Positions 44,812-53,227 of a DNA stretch of 64,000 nucleotides are shown here, one piece after another. Where the stretch lies: NCBI GenBank assembly GCA_947497475.1, contig CANMGS010000002.1:682001-746000 (forward strand), read 5' to 3'. Origin of the DNA: an uncultured Amylibacter sp. (GTDB lineage Bacteria; Pseudomonadota; Alphaproteobacteria; Rhodobacterales; Rhodobacteraceae). Below the pieces are notes generated by a model. It was not told where the DNA came from and ran no database searches. It saw only the letters and a list, made by a program, of their open reading frames with translations. Position numbers and translations under genes: made by a program. Position 1 is the first letter of the stretch. Each line of letters starts with the position of its first letter.

Positions 44812-45114
44812 ATGTCAAATACAGTAAAAACTTTGGTTGTAGCATCAGCAGTTGCAGCAGCACTAACAGCGCAAACAACTTCAGCTTCTGCAGCTGGCAA
44901 AGAAAAATGCTACGGCGTTGCTCTTGCTGGTGAAAACGGCTGTGCAGCTGGTCCAGGTACATCATGTGCAGGTACATCTAAAGTAGATTACCAAGGTAAT
45001 GCATGGTCATTGGTTGCTAAAGGCACATGTGAAGGTATCGAACTACCAGCACTTGCAGACGGCACACCACGTAAAGGTTCTTTAGAAGAACTAACACGCG
45101 ACATCCCTGCATAA
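44812..45114 (+). CDS. bufA: BufA-type bufferin precursor (DUF2282)
   Basis: 100 aa. A signal peptide ([19 protein letters not shown]) precedes a mature part of about 72 residues with four cysteines at 33, 44, 52 and 73 ([27 protein letters not shown]), the DUF2282/bufferin pattern. Bufferins are periplasmic peptides whose central cysteines are modified by the DUF692 enzyme so they can bind copper. AAGGAG lies before the ATG. It is the first gene of an operon with bufB, bufC and a DoxX gene. A local sigma/anti-sigma pair, which accompanies some homologous operons, is not seen. Confidence 0.88.
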
Positions 45115-45176
45115 ATTTAAGTCTTTTGGGTGTGGCAGAAAACCTGCCACACCTATCCTGAATAGGAGTTTTCACA

Positions 45177-46049
45177 ATGCTAGATCAAAGCTCTTCCAAC
45201 ATCCCTAAAATCCCAAACCGCGCGGGCGTTGGTTATAAAGCACAACATTTGAATGGCATTTTGAAAGACCCTTCTGCGATTGGTTGGATCGAAATCCATG
45301 CTGAAAACTATATGGGTGATGGTGGTCGTCCTATAGCGCAGCTAAAACATCTTCGCGAAATGTACCCCGTTTCTTGCCACGGTGTTGGTTTATCTATCGG
45401 TGCAGAAAGCCCACTGGATGCAGATCACCTTGCACGCCTAAAGCATTTGGTCAGCTGGTTAAACCCTGCTTTGTTTTCTGAACATTTGGCCTGGTCCACA
45501 CATGAAACACATTTTTTAAACGATTTACTTCCTGTGCCTTACACAAAAGCGGTCGTTGACCGTGTCGTTGATCACATCGATCAAGTGCAAGACACCGTTG
45601 GTCGTCGTATGCTACTGGAAAACCCATCCACATATTGCGCTTTTGAAGAAAGCGATATGTCTGAAATTGATTTCCTATCAGAAGTCGCATCACGTACAGG
45701 CTGTGGTCTGTTGTTGGATGTTAACAATGTATTCATCTCCGCAACCAATCAACAATACTCCCCAGAGGCCTATATTGATGCTTATCCTTTAGAGCACGTT
45801 GGTGAAATCCATTTAGGTGGGCATGAAGAGGATGCTGACGATCATGGCGAAACACTGTTAATCGACAGCCATTCGCGCCAAGTCGTTGATCCAGTTTGGG
45901 AATTATATAAATACACCCTAAAACAATCTGGCCCACGCCCAACATTGATTGAATGGGATAATGATATTCCAAGCTGGGATGTTCTGGCCAACGAAGCTCG
46001 CCTTGCAGATGATTTGCTGGCAAACGCGCAGTTGGTCGCAGCAGAATGA
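45177..46049 (+). CDS. bufB: BufB multinuclear iron oxidase (DUF692)
   Basis: 290 aa, DUF692/MNIO family with a TIM-barrel. Expected metal ligands are visible in IEIHAENYM, VSCHGVGLSIG, SEHLAWS, LLENPSTY, LLDVNNVFIS, IHLGGHEED and IDSHSR. MNIO enzymes use an iron centre and O2 to convert cysteines of a precursor peptide into oxidised heterocycles; here the likely substrate is the BufA peptide encoded 62 bp upstream. It overlaps bufC by 4 bp, coupling it to its partner. Confidence 0.92.
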   Translation: MLDQSSSNIPKIPNRAGVGYKAQHLNGILKDPSAIGWIEIHAENYMGDGGRPIAQLKHLREMYPVSCHGVGLSIGAESPLDADHLARLKHLVSWLNPALFSEHLAWSTHETHFLNDLLPVPYTKAVVDRVVDHIDQVQDTVGRRMLLENPSTYCAFEESDMSEIDFLSEVASRTGCGLLLDVNNVFISATNQQYSPEAYIDAYPLEHVGEIHLGGHEEDADDHGETLLIDSHSRQVVDPVWELYKYTLKQSGPRPTLIEWDNDIPSWDVLANEARLADDLLANAQLVAAE

Positions 46050-46792
46050 CCGTAAATCAAACAGATTTCACAGCCGCCTTACTTAATGCAGACTTGGCGA
46101 TACCATCAGGCATGGTTGACTATCAAGGCCGCCCTGCAGGGAAACGCTTTGATGTGTACCGCAATAATGTCGTGGTTAGCCTGATTGATGCTATGGAGAC
46201 AGCCTTTCCAGCTATACATAAACTGGTTGGCGATGAGTTTTTTAAAGCGATGGCGGGTATTTATGTTCGCGCGTACCCGCCCACCACACCGATGATGATG
46301 TTTTATGGTGAAGCCTTCCCAGAATTCCTAGAAAGCTTTGAACACGTACAGCAGCTTCCATATTTGGCGGATGTCGCACGTCTGGAACTACAGCGCCGCA
46401 GCAGCTATCACGCAGCTGACAGTACAGCAATCTCTCCAGAAGATTTGGGTGCGATTTCACCTGATGACCTGATGAATGTAAAATTAAAATTGTCGCCAGC
46501 ATTACGTATGCTTCAATCGCCATATCCAGTTCTTTCCATTTGGAATATGAATATGGTCGAAGGCGCTCCGCAACCAGAACCTGTTGAACAAACTGTTTTA
46601 CTATTCCGTCCAGAATTAGACGTAGATATGGTTGAAATAAATGATGCAACACATTGTTTTATATCAAAACTAAAGAATAACACCTTAGGCGCTTCTTATG
46701 AAGAAGCCCTAAGTTTAGATGAAACTTTTGATCTAGGCCAAGCGCTTGGGTTACTACTGACACACCAACTGATCACACAGCTAAACGTATAA
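46046..46792 (+). CDS. bufC: BufC-type partner protein (DUF2063)
   Basis: 248 aa. The N-terminal DUF2063 domain contains FDVYRNNVVVSLIDAMETAFPAIHKLVGDEFF and ARLELQRRSSYHA. In bufferin-type systems this protein works with the MNIO enzyme, probably to present the precursor peptide. The start overlaps the bufB stop (ATGA), so the pair is made together. The C-terminal half is less conserved. Confidence 0.9.
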   Translation: MTVNQTDFTAALLNADLAIPSGMVDYQGRPAGKRFDVYRNNVVVSLIDAMETAFPAIHKLVGDEFFKAMAGIYVRAYPPTTPMMMFYGEAFPEFLESFEHVQQLPYLADVARLELQRRSSYHAADSTAISPEDLGAISPDDLMNVKLKLSPALRMLQSPYPVLSIWNMNMVEGAPQPEPVEQTVLLFRPELDVDMVEINDATHCFISKLKNNTLGASYEEALSLDETFDLGQALGLLLTHQLITQLNV

Positions 46793-46803
46793 AGGGGATG
46801 ATC

Positions 46804-47349
46804 ATGAACGCAATTTTTTCACTATATAATAAGGTGGTAGATCTCATTACGCGCTTGGCGGGTACATGGTTACTACCAACACTCGCACGGTTTGCTTTTA
46901 TAGCAGTATTGCCATTGTTTTTCTGGAAATCCGCTATCACTAAATCAGGCGAAGGCATTCTTGGCTTTTTATCACCTGATGATGGCGCCTATATCCAAAT
47001 GTTCCCAAAAGCATTCGATGCAGTTGGCTATGACAGCAGCGAATTAGGCTTGATTTACACATTAATCGCAATTGCAGGTATCGCAGCAGAATTCTTGCTG
47101 CCCTTATTGATCGCAATTGGTTTATTTACACGACTATCCGCAATCGGCATGATTGGCTTTATTTTCGTAATGTCATTCGTAGATAAGACTGGTCATGGTC
47201 TTGATGCTGCAACATTCGGATCATGGTTCGACCGCTTCCCAGACAGCTTGGTTATGGATCAACGTCTACTATGGATCACATTGCTAATAACAATGATTGT
47301 CAAAGGCGCTGGACCCCTATCATTGGATAAAGTTCTAAAAATTCGCTAA
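46804..47349 (+). CDS. DoxX family membrane protein
   Basis: Start taken at 46804 because AAGGGG is 6 bases before it; the ATG at 46798 directly abuts this site. About 181 aa with four hydrophobic spans (ARFAFIAVLPLFFWKS; TLIAIAGIAAEFLLPLLIAIG; AIGMIGFIFVMSFV; LLWITLLITMIV), the DoxX layout. DoxX genes commonly close bufferin operons, where they may supply redox or membrane functions. A terminator follows directly. Confidence 0.88.
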   Translation: MNAIFSLYNKVVDLITRLAGTWLLPTLARFAFIAVLPLFFWKSAITKSGEGILGFLSPDDGAYIQMFPKAFDAVGYDSSELGLIYTLIAIAGIAAEFLLPLLIAIGLFTRLSAIGMIGFIFVMSFVDKTGHGLDAATFGSWFDRFPDSLVMDQRLLWITLLITMIVKGAGPLSLDKVLKIR

Positions 47350-49556: not shown

Positions 49557-49648
49557 TTAACTATCAGTATAACCGAAATTACTCGAAATTTTCATTCAGG
49601 ATAAAATTAACGCGATAGTTTCTATTGTGTTTCTATAATTTCGCAATA

Positions 49649-49668
49649 TGTTATGTTATAACATAACA
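49649..49668. promoter_or_regulatory. Zur-like operator upstream of COG0523 GTPase
   Basis: TGTTATGTTATAACATAACA is a perfect 20-bp palindrome ending 16 bp before the ATG. It is of the TGTTAT/ATAACA type described for zinc uptake regulator (Zur) sites in alphaproteobacteria, and the downstream gene is a classic Zur target. Confidence 0.75.
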
Positions 49669-49683
49669 CAAAGGATTACACTC

Positions 49684-50889
49684 ATGCCCGATACCCGCCT
49701 TCCAGTAACAGTTTTATCTGGTTTCCTTGGTGCAGGCAAAACCACCCTATTAAATCGCGTCTTAAACAACCGTGATGGTTTAAAAGTTGCAGTCATCGTG
49801 AATGATATGTCAGAGGTCAATATTGATGCAGACCTTGTGCGTGCCAATACCGAATTAAGTCATACCGATGAAACCTTAGTTGAAATGTCCAATGGCTGCA
49901 TATGCTGTACATTGCGTGATGATTTATTGCTTGAAGTCCGCCGTTTGTCAGATGAAGGGCGTTTTGATTATCTGCTGATTGAATCTACAGGTATATCTGA
50001 ACCCCTACCCGTTGCGACAACCTTTGAGTTTCGTGATGAAGATGGTCAAAGCCTGTCTGATATCGCGCGTCTTGATACAATGGTGACGGTTGTTGATGCA
50101 GTGAACTTGTTAAACGATTATTCAAGCCATGATTTCTTGGCTGACCGCGGTGAAACCATGGGCGAAGAGGATGATCGCACTTTGGTCAACCTATTGGTCG
50201 AACAGATCGAATTTGCGGATGTTGTGGTGCTGAACAAAGTTGTTGATGCCACAAAAGATCAGGTTGATGCAGCGCTGAAAATCATTCGTAGCTTGAATGC
50301 GGACGCTAAGATTATTCGCAGCAGCTATTCTGATGTGCCAGCAAAAGAGATTTTGAACACAGGGTTGTTTGATTTCGCTTCTGCACATGATCACCCGATG
50401 TGGGCAAAAGAGCTGTATGGGTTTGCTGATCACATACCAGAAAGCGATGAATATGATGTGAAAACATTCGTATACCGCGCACGCCGCCCTTTTGAGCCAG
50501 AGAAAATCTTGGCCGTTTTAAACGGCGCTTTGCCAGGCGTGATCCGCGCCAAAGGTCACTTCTGGATCGCATCACGCCCTGAGTGGGTTGCAGAGTTTTC
50601 ATTGGCGGGTGCCCTGTCATCTGTGAAACCACTGGGTCAATGGTGGGCGACAACGCCAAAGGAAAGATGGCCAGAAAATGAAACCGCCCGCGCCTATATG
50701 GAAACCCATTGGCAAGAACCATGGGGCGATCGCCGTCAGGAAATCGTGTTTATCGGCACAGGTATCAACTGGATGGATTTAACAGCGAAACTGGATGGTG
50801 CGTTGATCCCTGAAGGGATTGCTGAAAGCGTGGAAGAGTTGCCAGAGTACAGTGATCCCTTCCCAAATTGGGCGCAGGCTGCAGCGTAA
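49684..50889 (+). CDS. COG0523 zinc-handling GTPase (ZigA/YciC-like)
   Basis: Start at ATG 49684 ([21 protein letters not shown]), replacing 49648, which lies in the operator; 401 aa. G3E GTPase: Walker [13 protein letters not shown], the zinc-binding CxCC motif [13 protein letters not shown] (C72, C74, C75), ESTGISEP and VLNKV. A CobW C-terminal domain covers about 265-395. Zur-controlled relatives move zinc to client proteins in zinc starvation. The palindrome directly upstream supports that role rather than cobalamin synthesis. Confidence 0.9.
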
Positions 50890-50922
50890 CATTTGTACTG
50901 AGTAGACAGTGTATTAAGTAAA

Positions 50923-50946
50923 GGGCGCGTGGGAAACTACGCGTCC
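50923..50946. terminator. Convergent terminator between GTPase and MBL gene
   Basis: GGGCGCGT-GGGAAACT-ACGCGTCC, an 8-bp stem with one G-U pair, followed by TTATCTTATTTT. It lies between the two convergent genes and could serve both. Confidence 0.65.
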
Positions 50947-50951
50947 TTATC

Positions 50952-51827
50952 TTATTTTCTTGTTATGTTTAAAAATGGTGTCTGGCTTTCGCCAAGACCA
51001 AACTTGATTACTATTTCTCCATCAGAATTAGTGGTTAAACATTTGCGGTCGTTTTCTTCGCCGTTACTACGATTATAAACTACCCAACCACTGCTATTTG
51101 CAGAATACCTTGCATTAGCACTGGTATCACAAAAACTACCGTCCGATACTACTGTAATTTTTGGGCAAACTAGGTTCACAAAATCTGAAACATAGCCTGA
51201 CTCGCGACCATGGTGTGGTGCAAGCAGAACATCCGCATCTCTTACAGCAGATTTGAAATCGGGATTAAGCATTAATTCATCAAAAGATGCTTTTTCATTA
51301 TCACCAGGAATTACAACTTTAATACCAGCATATTCAAAAATGGATACTATGGAATGGTTATTATAATTCGAGATGTCACAAGAAGTAGGCGTAAATGTTG
51401 AAATATTCACCCCACCCCAATTTTGTGGATTAGACGTACTATCAAAGCTATCCTTTGAAATTGGTATGTTGTAACTAGTATTTATATCACAATACTTCTT
51501 AAATTTTTCTACATCCTGCTCTCTTACACCGTCCAAAACATGTTCATTCGGAATATGCTTGGGGCGATTTAGTACTTTTGGCTTTAGGCTATCAATATTT
51601 AAAATATCATCTATATGATCCAAGTGTGGATGCGTAATAATTAAATAATCAAGCTTATCTACCCCAAATTTATCTTTTATATGCGTTAAAGGGCTAAACT
51701 CTGAATTATTTCCAGAATAATCACCTGTACCAAGGTCTATTACTATGTGCCGATTATTAGGTGTTTTTAAATATGTAGCGTGACCATGTTGAACATCCCA
51801 AAAATATAACTCACATTGATTTACCAT
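50952..51827 (-). CDS. ComEC-like metallo-beta-lactamase-fold protein
   Basis: Start at 51827 (MVNQCELYFWDVQHGHATYL) with AGGAAAA upstream; 291 aa. It is a stand-alone MBL domain of the ComEC/Rec2 type: the usual VGQGDA motif at the start appears as DVQHGHA, followed by IVIDLGTGDYSG. The metal motif is THPHLDH (H66, H68, D70, H71), and LLAPHHG supplies another histidine. It has no membrane segment. The 17-bp overlap with the upstream membrane protein gene makes a two-gene unit. The region is clearly A+T-rich compared with thyX and the GTPase, suggesting transfer. Possibly a nuclease or phosphodiesterase. Confidence 0.78.
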   Translation of the reverse strand: MVNQCELYFWDVQHGHATYLKTPNNRHIVIDLGTGDYSGNNSEFSPLTHIKDKFGVDKLDYLIITHPHLDHIDDILNIDSLKPKVLNRPKHIPNEHVLDGVREQDVEKFKKYCDINTSYNIPISKDSFDSTSNPQNWGGVNISTFTPTSCDISNYNNHSIVSIFEYAGIKVVIPGDNEKASFDELMLNPDFKSAVRDADVLLAPHHGRESGYVSDFVNLVCPKITVVSDGSFCDTSANARYSANSSGWVVYNRSNGEENDRKCLTTNSDGEIVIKFGLGESQTPFLNITRK

Positions 51828-52311
51828 TCGCAATTTTCCTAATTCTTGATGAAATAAATAATGTCTGTTTACGATATGAAAGCAAGAATAATAGGAGCAT
51901 AAGGAAAAGGCCAACCCAGACATTTGTGTCAGAACTAATAGGAAACTTATTCTTTACCAAACCGAAGAGATTAATAATGGTTAAAACCAAAAAAACAGCT
52001 GCAAAAGTTCTATAAGTGTTACTTGCTTCTACGAAGACTTCAAGCTTACTATCTTCTTTAATTGCATCTAGATATTTTGAGTATTCTTCAAAACGAATAA
52101 AACCAAACTTTTTAAGTACTGGCTCTAACAGCACTGATCCAAGCCGACTTAATACCAAGCCAACAAAGTAATAAAAGAATGCAGCTACGAATATGTCATC
52201 TTGGATAAAGTTTACTTGAAATATTTCGTTCAATAAAACGATAAAGACAACACCAGGAAGTAGGTAATTGAATAAGTTATAACTACCAATCTTATCCAGT
52301 AACTCTGACAT
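51811..52311 (-). CDS. Four-span membrane protein paired with ComEC-like MBL
   Basis: 166 aa. Hydrophobic spans at about 13-30, 41-60, 102-119 and 131-146; a charged segment (about 65-100: KKFGFIRFEEYSKYLDAIKEDSK) lies between the second and third. The N-terminus (LLDKIGSYNLFNYLLPG) is followed by a hydrophobic run. No known family. It shares 17 bp with the MBL gene, implying translational coupling and a joint function at the membrane. Its stop and the thyX stop region are 1 bp apart, with no obvious att repeats. Confidence 0.7.
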   Translation of the reverse strand: MSELLDKIGSYNLFNYLLPGVVFIVLLNEIFQVNFIQDDIFVAAFFYYFVGLVLSRLGSVLLEPVLKKFGFIRFEEYSKYLDAIKEDSKLEVFVEASNTYRTFAAVFLVLTIINLFGLVKNKFPISSDTNVWVGLFLMLLLFLLSYRKQTLFISSRIRKIANGKSM

Positions 52312-52312
52312 A

Positions 52313-53227
52313 TTACCCCTTAATCATCGCTTCAAACTCACGCCATTCACCCTTGGACATACCGCTGTTTTCTTGGGTCACCTCTTCGCCAGCCAAACGG
52401 CGGCGTAGGCATTCTAGGCCGCGTTCGGATACATTGGCGCCGCCCATGCGGTAGTCTTCGAATGCTGAATAGGCTGCTGGTACCCAGTCTTTGACGATTT
52501 CGCACATTTTTTCGGCGTAGACGCGTATTTCGTATTGGGCGTGGCTGTCGGCGCGTAGGCGTAGGAAGTGGAATAGGTTGTGCAGGTCTACCTTCCAATA
52601 CCATTGGGTATAGACATTGGCTGGCAGGTTCATGCGGGCGAGTTCACGGGCAAGACCCTGTTTGCTGTCATCCCCCTCTGCCATCATTTCTTCGTAATGG
52701 TCATAGGCTTTTTCACTGTCGTCTTTGAGGTATTTCAAAACGGCATCCGCTTCAGCACCGGTTAGAGCTTCACCGCGGCCTTGGTTGTTGATCACGGATT
52801 GGGCGGCAAGGTGTTCCGCTTTTGGAATATAGAATTCGCGGTCCAAGATTGAATAGCGTGCAGAGTATTCGTTTACATTCGCTGTGCGATGGCGGATCCA
52901 TTGGCGCGCAACAAACACTGGAAGTTTGATGTGGAATTTGACTTCGCACATTTCAAACGGTGTGGAATGCCAGTGGCGCATCAGGTAGCGGATTAAACCC
53001 TCGTCATTTGTGACCGCTTTGGTGCCTTTGCCGTATGATACGCGGGCGGCTTGGGTGATGGCGCTGTCATTGCCCATATAGTCGATGACGCGGATCAGGC
53101 CGTGATCCAGAACTTCGTGGGCTGTATACAGGTGGTTTTCCATGCCTTCGGATATCGCGCGGCGTGTTGTGCCCTGTTGTGCGCGTTGATCTTCGATTTC
53201 GGCCTGTTGTTCTGGTGTTAATGGCAT
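52313..53227 (-). CDS. thyX: Flavin-dependent thymidylate synthase
   Basis: 304 aa, at the longer end for ThyX. Signature [15 protein letters not shown] (the RHRxxSxNExSxRY-type motif) and [17 protein letters not shown] are present. It makes dTMP from dUMP with FAD and methylene-THF, and substitutes for ThyA. GC content is higher than that of the neighbouring MBL pair, which argues that the pair rather than thyX is the insertion. Upstream is a 338-bp divergent region with aroQ. Confidence 0.96.

Follow-up and report, generated by a model that had tools for sequence, protein, structure and literature searches.

A horizontally acquired PDC-M48 gene pair behind thyX in Amylibacter, and a membrane-protein link to 6A-MBL ubiquitin-like operons

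PADLOC-DB 2.0.0 (2023) contains PDC-M48, a two-gene "phage defence candidate" (a membrane protein plus a metallo-beta-lactamase-fold, MBL, enzyme) that is unvalidated, as is most of the putative defense candidate (PDC) class (PMC12988326). Row 6a of the survey by Iyer et al. (2006) describes an arrangement of usually two genes, one encoding a fused E2-E1-JAB protein and one an MBL (PMC1779556), now represented by the NCBIfam models NF058523/NF058524 under the name "anti-phage 6A-MBL system." The corresponding domain of the competence protein ComEC is a two-metal nuclease, and mutational studies have addressed its residues H598, D600, D602, H603, D700, and H725 (PMC12455585). Literature searches under the names "PDC-M48" and "6A-MBL" found no paper in the library covered. 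Here, we describe a gene pair from an uncultured Amylibacter sp. that belongs to the first of these systems and shares a membrane-protein family with some loci of the second.

The pair lies in a 64,000-nucleotide stretch of DNA (the window). An MBL-fold enzyme of 291 aa is encoded at 50952–51827 and a four-helix membrane (TM) protein of 166 aa at 51811–52311, both on the minus strand; by their ORF coordinates the two genes overlap by 17 bp (51811–51827), as the earlier note had reported. We take ATG 51827 as the MBL start, rather than the mechanical start of the ORF lister further upstream (51923), because a ribosome-site-like AGGA precedes it (51837–51840, minus strand) and the resulting product fits the family model end to end. 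The TM gene begins one base past the stop codon of thyX (52313–53227, minus strand), and its own ribosome-site-like sequence, AAGGGG (52316–52321, minus strand), is formed by the final two sense codons of thyX; the pair is probably expressed from the thyX transcript. A CobW-type GTPase gene (49648–50889, plus strand) forms the opposite flank. The A+T-rich composition noted earlier holds up: G+C content is 35.0% in the MBL gene and 32.1% in the TM gene, the latter being the lowest among 57 window ORFs, against 43.2 ± 3.6% (mean, s.d.) for those ORFs.

Comparison with a sister species bears out the earlier proposal of a transferred insert. In genome G018, the closest sister, thyX and the GTPase gene keep the same arrangement at 88–91% DNA identity, and the pair is missing; an unrelated 0.5 kb encoding a 111-aa two-span protein replaces the 1.4 kb that carries the pair. 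DNA identity to G018 breaks off at the thyX stop codon, and the inserted segment runs from there to the stop of the GTPase gene (50890–52312). The pair is thus an acquired insert in a cargo slot directly behind thyX, the gene that anchors the slot and itself stands outside the module. Across 14 genomes of the genus, the first same-strand ORF 3' of thyX falls into 13 families, and about eight of those ORFs have a likely start no more than three bases from the thyX stop. Cargo at this position (window 52311–52316; L116, L118, L125–L127, L131, L135, L136) is unrelated in nearly every species. As a control, one family follows fpr in 7 of 12 genomes; in most genomes the gene downstream of fpr is the DUF692 gene of a bufferin-type operon. 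In the window, positions 44812–47349 hold what is likely this operon, kept behind fpr in the genus and predicted to encode a small Cys-bearing secreted protein, a DUF692/MNIO-type enzyme, a DUF2063-type protein, and a DoxX-type membrane protein.

The cargo of sister species at the thyX slot includes an OLD/AbiL/AriA-like ATPase and a DUF4238 protein (Pfam E 2.4e-38) whose gene lies 166 bp past thyX. A DUF4238 protein at the P2 hotspot gives strong resistance to T7 (PMC9122126). The slot thus takes in defense-type genes, although for several of the remaining cargo proteins no family could be assigned; a literature search on thyX as a defense hotspot returned no useful paper.

Both genes match PDC-M48 over nearly their full length: the TM protein matches PDLC04670 (M48A) with E 3.7e-59 over residues 1–160 of 166, and the MBL matches PDLC04675 (M48B) with E 4.9e-145 over residues 1–290 of 291. 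They have the two-gene layout of that system, adjacent with the 17-bp overlap, and differ from it in nothing of kind; what is new is the position behind thyX and the link to 6A-MBL. The earlier note had described the pair as lacking an assigned function and as a candidate new system. Neither description survives: PADLOC models exist for both genes, and because PDC-M48 has been in PADLOC-DB since 2023, the pair is no new system. It belongs to a candidate defense system already on record and was acquired by horizontal transfer.

The pair is rare and patchily distributed, not a set of fixed core genes. Of 61 relatives, 2 carry the TM gene, and among 399 Pseudomonadota genomes a single one has PDC-M48A; the TM family nevertheless spans many phyla and includes one archaeal genome (best 80 of 123 loci). 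The closest MBLs found are from Bacteroidota, 59–64% identical and in the same gene order; transfer from an A+T-rich donor would fit. The other M48 pair of the genus, in genome G003 (L120, 6744–8135), has a diverged MBL and is inserted between rplP and rplN of a ribosomal protein operon.

The genomic surroundings of the family differ between the window and its relatives. No defense genes flank the pair: a PADLOC scan of the 64 window ORFs (E <= 1e-20) returned only the pair itself together with mad2/mad3 and RtcR matches, which we take as generic, and the candidate of a defense island in the window was rejected. The pair's neighbors within the window are housekeeping genes. Proteins flanking genomic relatives, by contrast, match restriction, AbiE, SoFic, and AriA models; this flank scan counts families rather than proteins matched and compares with a single genome, and we give it a supporting role only. 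Among 5426 complete E. coli genomes, 44 contain a diverged pair, and all three examples examined sit in P2-like prophages, in the interval from gpA to gpQ. This interval is a proven defense hotspot (PMC9122126), where old/tin and many systems with tested activity are found (PMC9122126, PMC9519451). The earlier likening of the pair to an anti-phage module of enzyme plus membrane protein therefore stands in part: the PDC-M48 match, the P2 hotspot, the occurrence in ubiquitin-like operons that NCBIfam names anti-phage, and the patchy distribution speak for it, and the missing flanking defense genes speak against it.

The TM gene keeps company with MBL genes in most of its loci. Among genomic TM loci, sampled as the best 80 of 123 so that the fractions are not population frequencies, an MBL is adjacent without a ubiquitin-type gene in 52 of 80 and accompanied by nearby E2/E1/JAB genes in 21 of 80, giving 73 of 80 in which it is adjacent or clustered with such genes; the remaining loci comprise one with a nonadjacent MBL, two with ubiquitin-type genes only, and four with neither. 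In viral contigs carrying the TM gene, an MBL is adjacent in 18 of 21, and in 12 the arrangement is convergent as in P2-like prophages. The window MBL itself had no match in viral contigs or phage records; the phage and viral matches came via the TM protein. A TM tree built from 86 rows requires 34 or more changes of partner type, against a possible minimum of 8 and a mean of 48.9 after shuffling, so that partner types are clustered yet often exchanged; only 12 of the 82 inner branches have good support, and several of the 12 unite different partner types. Exchange also runs in the other direction: next to or close to the window-type MBLs of Adhaeribacter, Methylocystis, and Halobacterium stand TM proteins of other kinds. 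The Methylocystis partner, tried as an M48A member, proved unrelated by hhalign and falls in no Pfam or PADLOC family. On a plasmid of Halobacterium sp. DL1 (L008, 7992–10020), a window-type MBL (33% identical) has in its vicinity a four-span protein that shares the Y...PG / G...G pattern, which suggests a haloarchaeal version of the module.

These pairings bear on whether the two proteins could be a toxin and its antidote, the TM protein acting on the membrane as a toxin that the MBL counters, or the reverse. Two small overlapping genes, one of them for a membrane protein, are what such a module would look like, but each gene is found without its counterpart: intact TM genes lack a nearby MBL (L028, L064), E. 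coli MLI108K2 has an intact TM gene beside a frameshifted prophage MBL gene (L122, 3221–4313), and a Rahnella MBL has no recognizable TM neighbor. Given the TM gene without a working MBL and the MBL without a TM gene, we reject a toxin–antitoxin pair as the main reading and regard it as very improbable.

The enzyme is most similar in structure to the ComEC nuclease domain. AlphaFold2 gives an MBL-type model (mean pLDDT 93.8) whose best PDB match is the ComEC beta-lactamase-like domain (9ic4, E 3.6e-18); the model is also Pce-like in fold. The motifs DVQHGHA (residues 11–17) and THPHLDH (65–71) are present as previously described. The metal-binding motif HPHLDH (H66–H71; 51615–51632, minus strand) is the predicted counterpart of ComEC H598-x-D600-x-D602-H603, D176 (51300–51302, minus strand) that of D700, and H205 of the PHHG motif (H205–H206; 51210–51215, minus strand) that of H725; D176 and H205–H206 are invariant in 39 MBLs. 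By this mapping, the metal site comprises H66, H68, D70, H71, D176, and H205. Fold and metal-site residues are therefore those of ComEC, with H68 in place of D600 and R208 in place of S728, whereas the window MBL is a soluble protein in its own right and lacks both OB domain and competence channel. Its similarity to the ComEC, 6A-MBL, and Avs1a models is weak and below cut-off, at 51 bits against 190.05 for the ComEC equivalog and 19.9 bits against a curated 220 for the 6A-MBL MBL model. With the MBL proteins of Lamassu (LmuA, E 3.1e-7) and Avs1 (Avs1a, E 0.0023) it has the superfamily in common, but the 64 window ORFs (PADLOC, E <= 1e-20) include no partner ATPase or SMC-type gene. One subgroup of MBL partners (L077, L078, L083, L084) has lost the first metal-binding His, as in TNYDEDH or SNYDEDH; for this reason some MBL partners may be inactive as nucleases.

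A ComEC- and Pce-like fold could also belong to an enzyme of mobile-element or membrane housekeeping, a hydrolase acting on a lipid, nucleotide, or phosphocholine-like substrate together with a membrane partner and carried as neutral or niche cargo. The PGAP annotation of relatives as "ComEC/Rec2 family competence protein" and a window free of defense neighbors point the same way. Against such a role stand the joint absence of ComEC channel and OB domain, the rare and patchy occurrence described above, and the recurrent link to E2/E1/JAB operons and the P2 defense hotspot, and we consider it unlikely.

The new observation at this locus is that the TM gene ties PDC-M48 to the 6A-MBL ubiquitin-like operons. 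Both systems have a ComEC-type MBL, and M48A-family TM genes occur in some 6A-MBL loci (L033, L027); the published two-gene description has no membrane protein, whereas the window pair does. Locus L033 reads TM, MBL, E2-E1-JAB: the MBL scores 350.9 bits against an NCBIfam cut-off of 220, cap2_3 scores 471.4 against 320, and the E2-E1-JAB protein contains the Pfam domains Prok-E2_A, ThiF, and Prok-JAB. No E2-E1-JAB (cap2_3) gene lies beside the window pair, and its own genome has no NF058523 match at E <= 1e-40. Among 399 Pseudomonadota genomes, a TM gene stands behind the E2-E1-JAB gene in five of five loci over the NF058523 cut-off, either directly or after one MBL gene (L152/L160). The TM genes of these five (L160–L164) belong to families other than M48A, and three of the five have a second MBL, which is PDC-M48B (E 1.1e-108 to 5.9e-145). 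At a sixth locus, below cut-off (L165), the gene that overlaps JAB is patatin-like, and a transposon-like insert splits the E2-E1 part from the JAB part. In CBASS, patatins act as effectors that attack the membrane, and the place taken by a TM gene in five 6A-MBL loci and by a patatin-like gene in the sixth therefore has the look of an effector slot.

The TM protein itself is modeled with four long helices (AlphaFold2, mean pLDDT 89.8), at residues 13–31, 40–68, 89–120, and 127–164, in agreement with the four-span protein of the earlier note. Fifteen residues are invariant in 86 sequences—K7, Y11, F14, L17, P19, G20, Y48, G51, R56, S59, E95, N98, R101, K148, and R156—and gather at helix ends that helix order and charge would place at the cytosolic face. 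A PDB fold search with the model gave no usable match. The first two helices (residues 6–82) resemble, weakly (E 0.0026), Csx27, the accessory membrane protein of type VI-B CRISPR; hhalign of the TM family to one Csx27-like partner reached a probability of only 34.9%. Partners of distant MBLs have the Y...PG / G...G / R pattern in common, and no Cas13b accompanies the pair.

How the membrane protein and the enzyme work together admits two live roles for the former. In one, the TM protein would anchor the MBL at the inner membrane face, where it would cut entering phage or plasmid DNA like an inward-turned, two-piece ComEC. In ComEC, this nuclease fold is joined with a membrane channel (PMC8579336, PMC12455585), the catalytic residues of the MBL are kept, and the invariant TM residues lie at helix ends presumed to be cytosolic. 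A specific docking surface would, however, disfavor the swapping of very different MBLs on one TM family, and the other TM partners of window-type MBLs, the loss of the first metal ligand in some MBL partners, and the replacement of the TM gene by a patatin-like gene weigh against tethering as well. Placement of the enzyme at the membrane, as previously suggested, is thus kept as one of the two roles and judged the less likely one; a tethered nuclease is the main rival reading, and we think it somewhat unlikely overall.

In the reading we prefer, with a probability of roughly 0.45, the pair is an anti-phage module of the abortive-infection type, with the MBL reacting to infection and the TM protein damaging the membrane. 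The cytosolic ComEC-type MBL would be set off by phage, or by foreign nucleic acid of another kind, and act as a metal-dependent nuclease or phosphodiesterase; the MBL or its product would then switch on the four-helix TM protein, whose damage to the membrane would abort the infection. We infer this function, the enzyme's substrate, and the order of events from the PDC-M48A/B match, the MBL beside the TM gene in 73 of 80 loci (best 80 of 123), the P2 hotspot, the 6A-MBL operon link, the kept metal-site residues, and the defense-type cargo of the thyX slot. We favor a responding MBL and an effector TM protein because the patatin-shared slot, the exchange of partners in both directions, and TM genes lacking an MBL fit this assignment. 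Counted against the module are the unvalidated status of PDC-M48 itself, the housekeeping neighbors, and the absence of window-type MBLs from phage records; against the TM protein as effector, that no fold relative indicates a pore and that the patatin-like evidence is one interrupted locus with a weak PDB match (E 1.2e-5). The MBL proteins of Avs1 and Lamassu are thought to be effectors themselves, which also counts against an effector TM protein.

PDC-M48 and 6A-MBL may, we tentatively suggest, form one modular superfamily: a core of ComEC-type MBL and small membrane effector, an optional E2-E1-JAB cassette, and a membrane-killing effector, TM or patatin-like and interchangeable, that the two-gene 6A description left out. 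The link suggests that a component of 6A-MBL systems has probably been missed, and with one TM family found both with MBLs alone and in E2-E1-JAB operons, a single membrane protein may have a part in two strategies of immunity. With just two genes, the short version makes it feasible to tell apart what the enzyme and the membrane protein each do, and the cargo slot 3' of thyX offers a further site for defense-gene searches in the genus.
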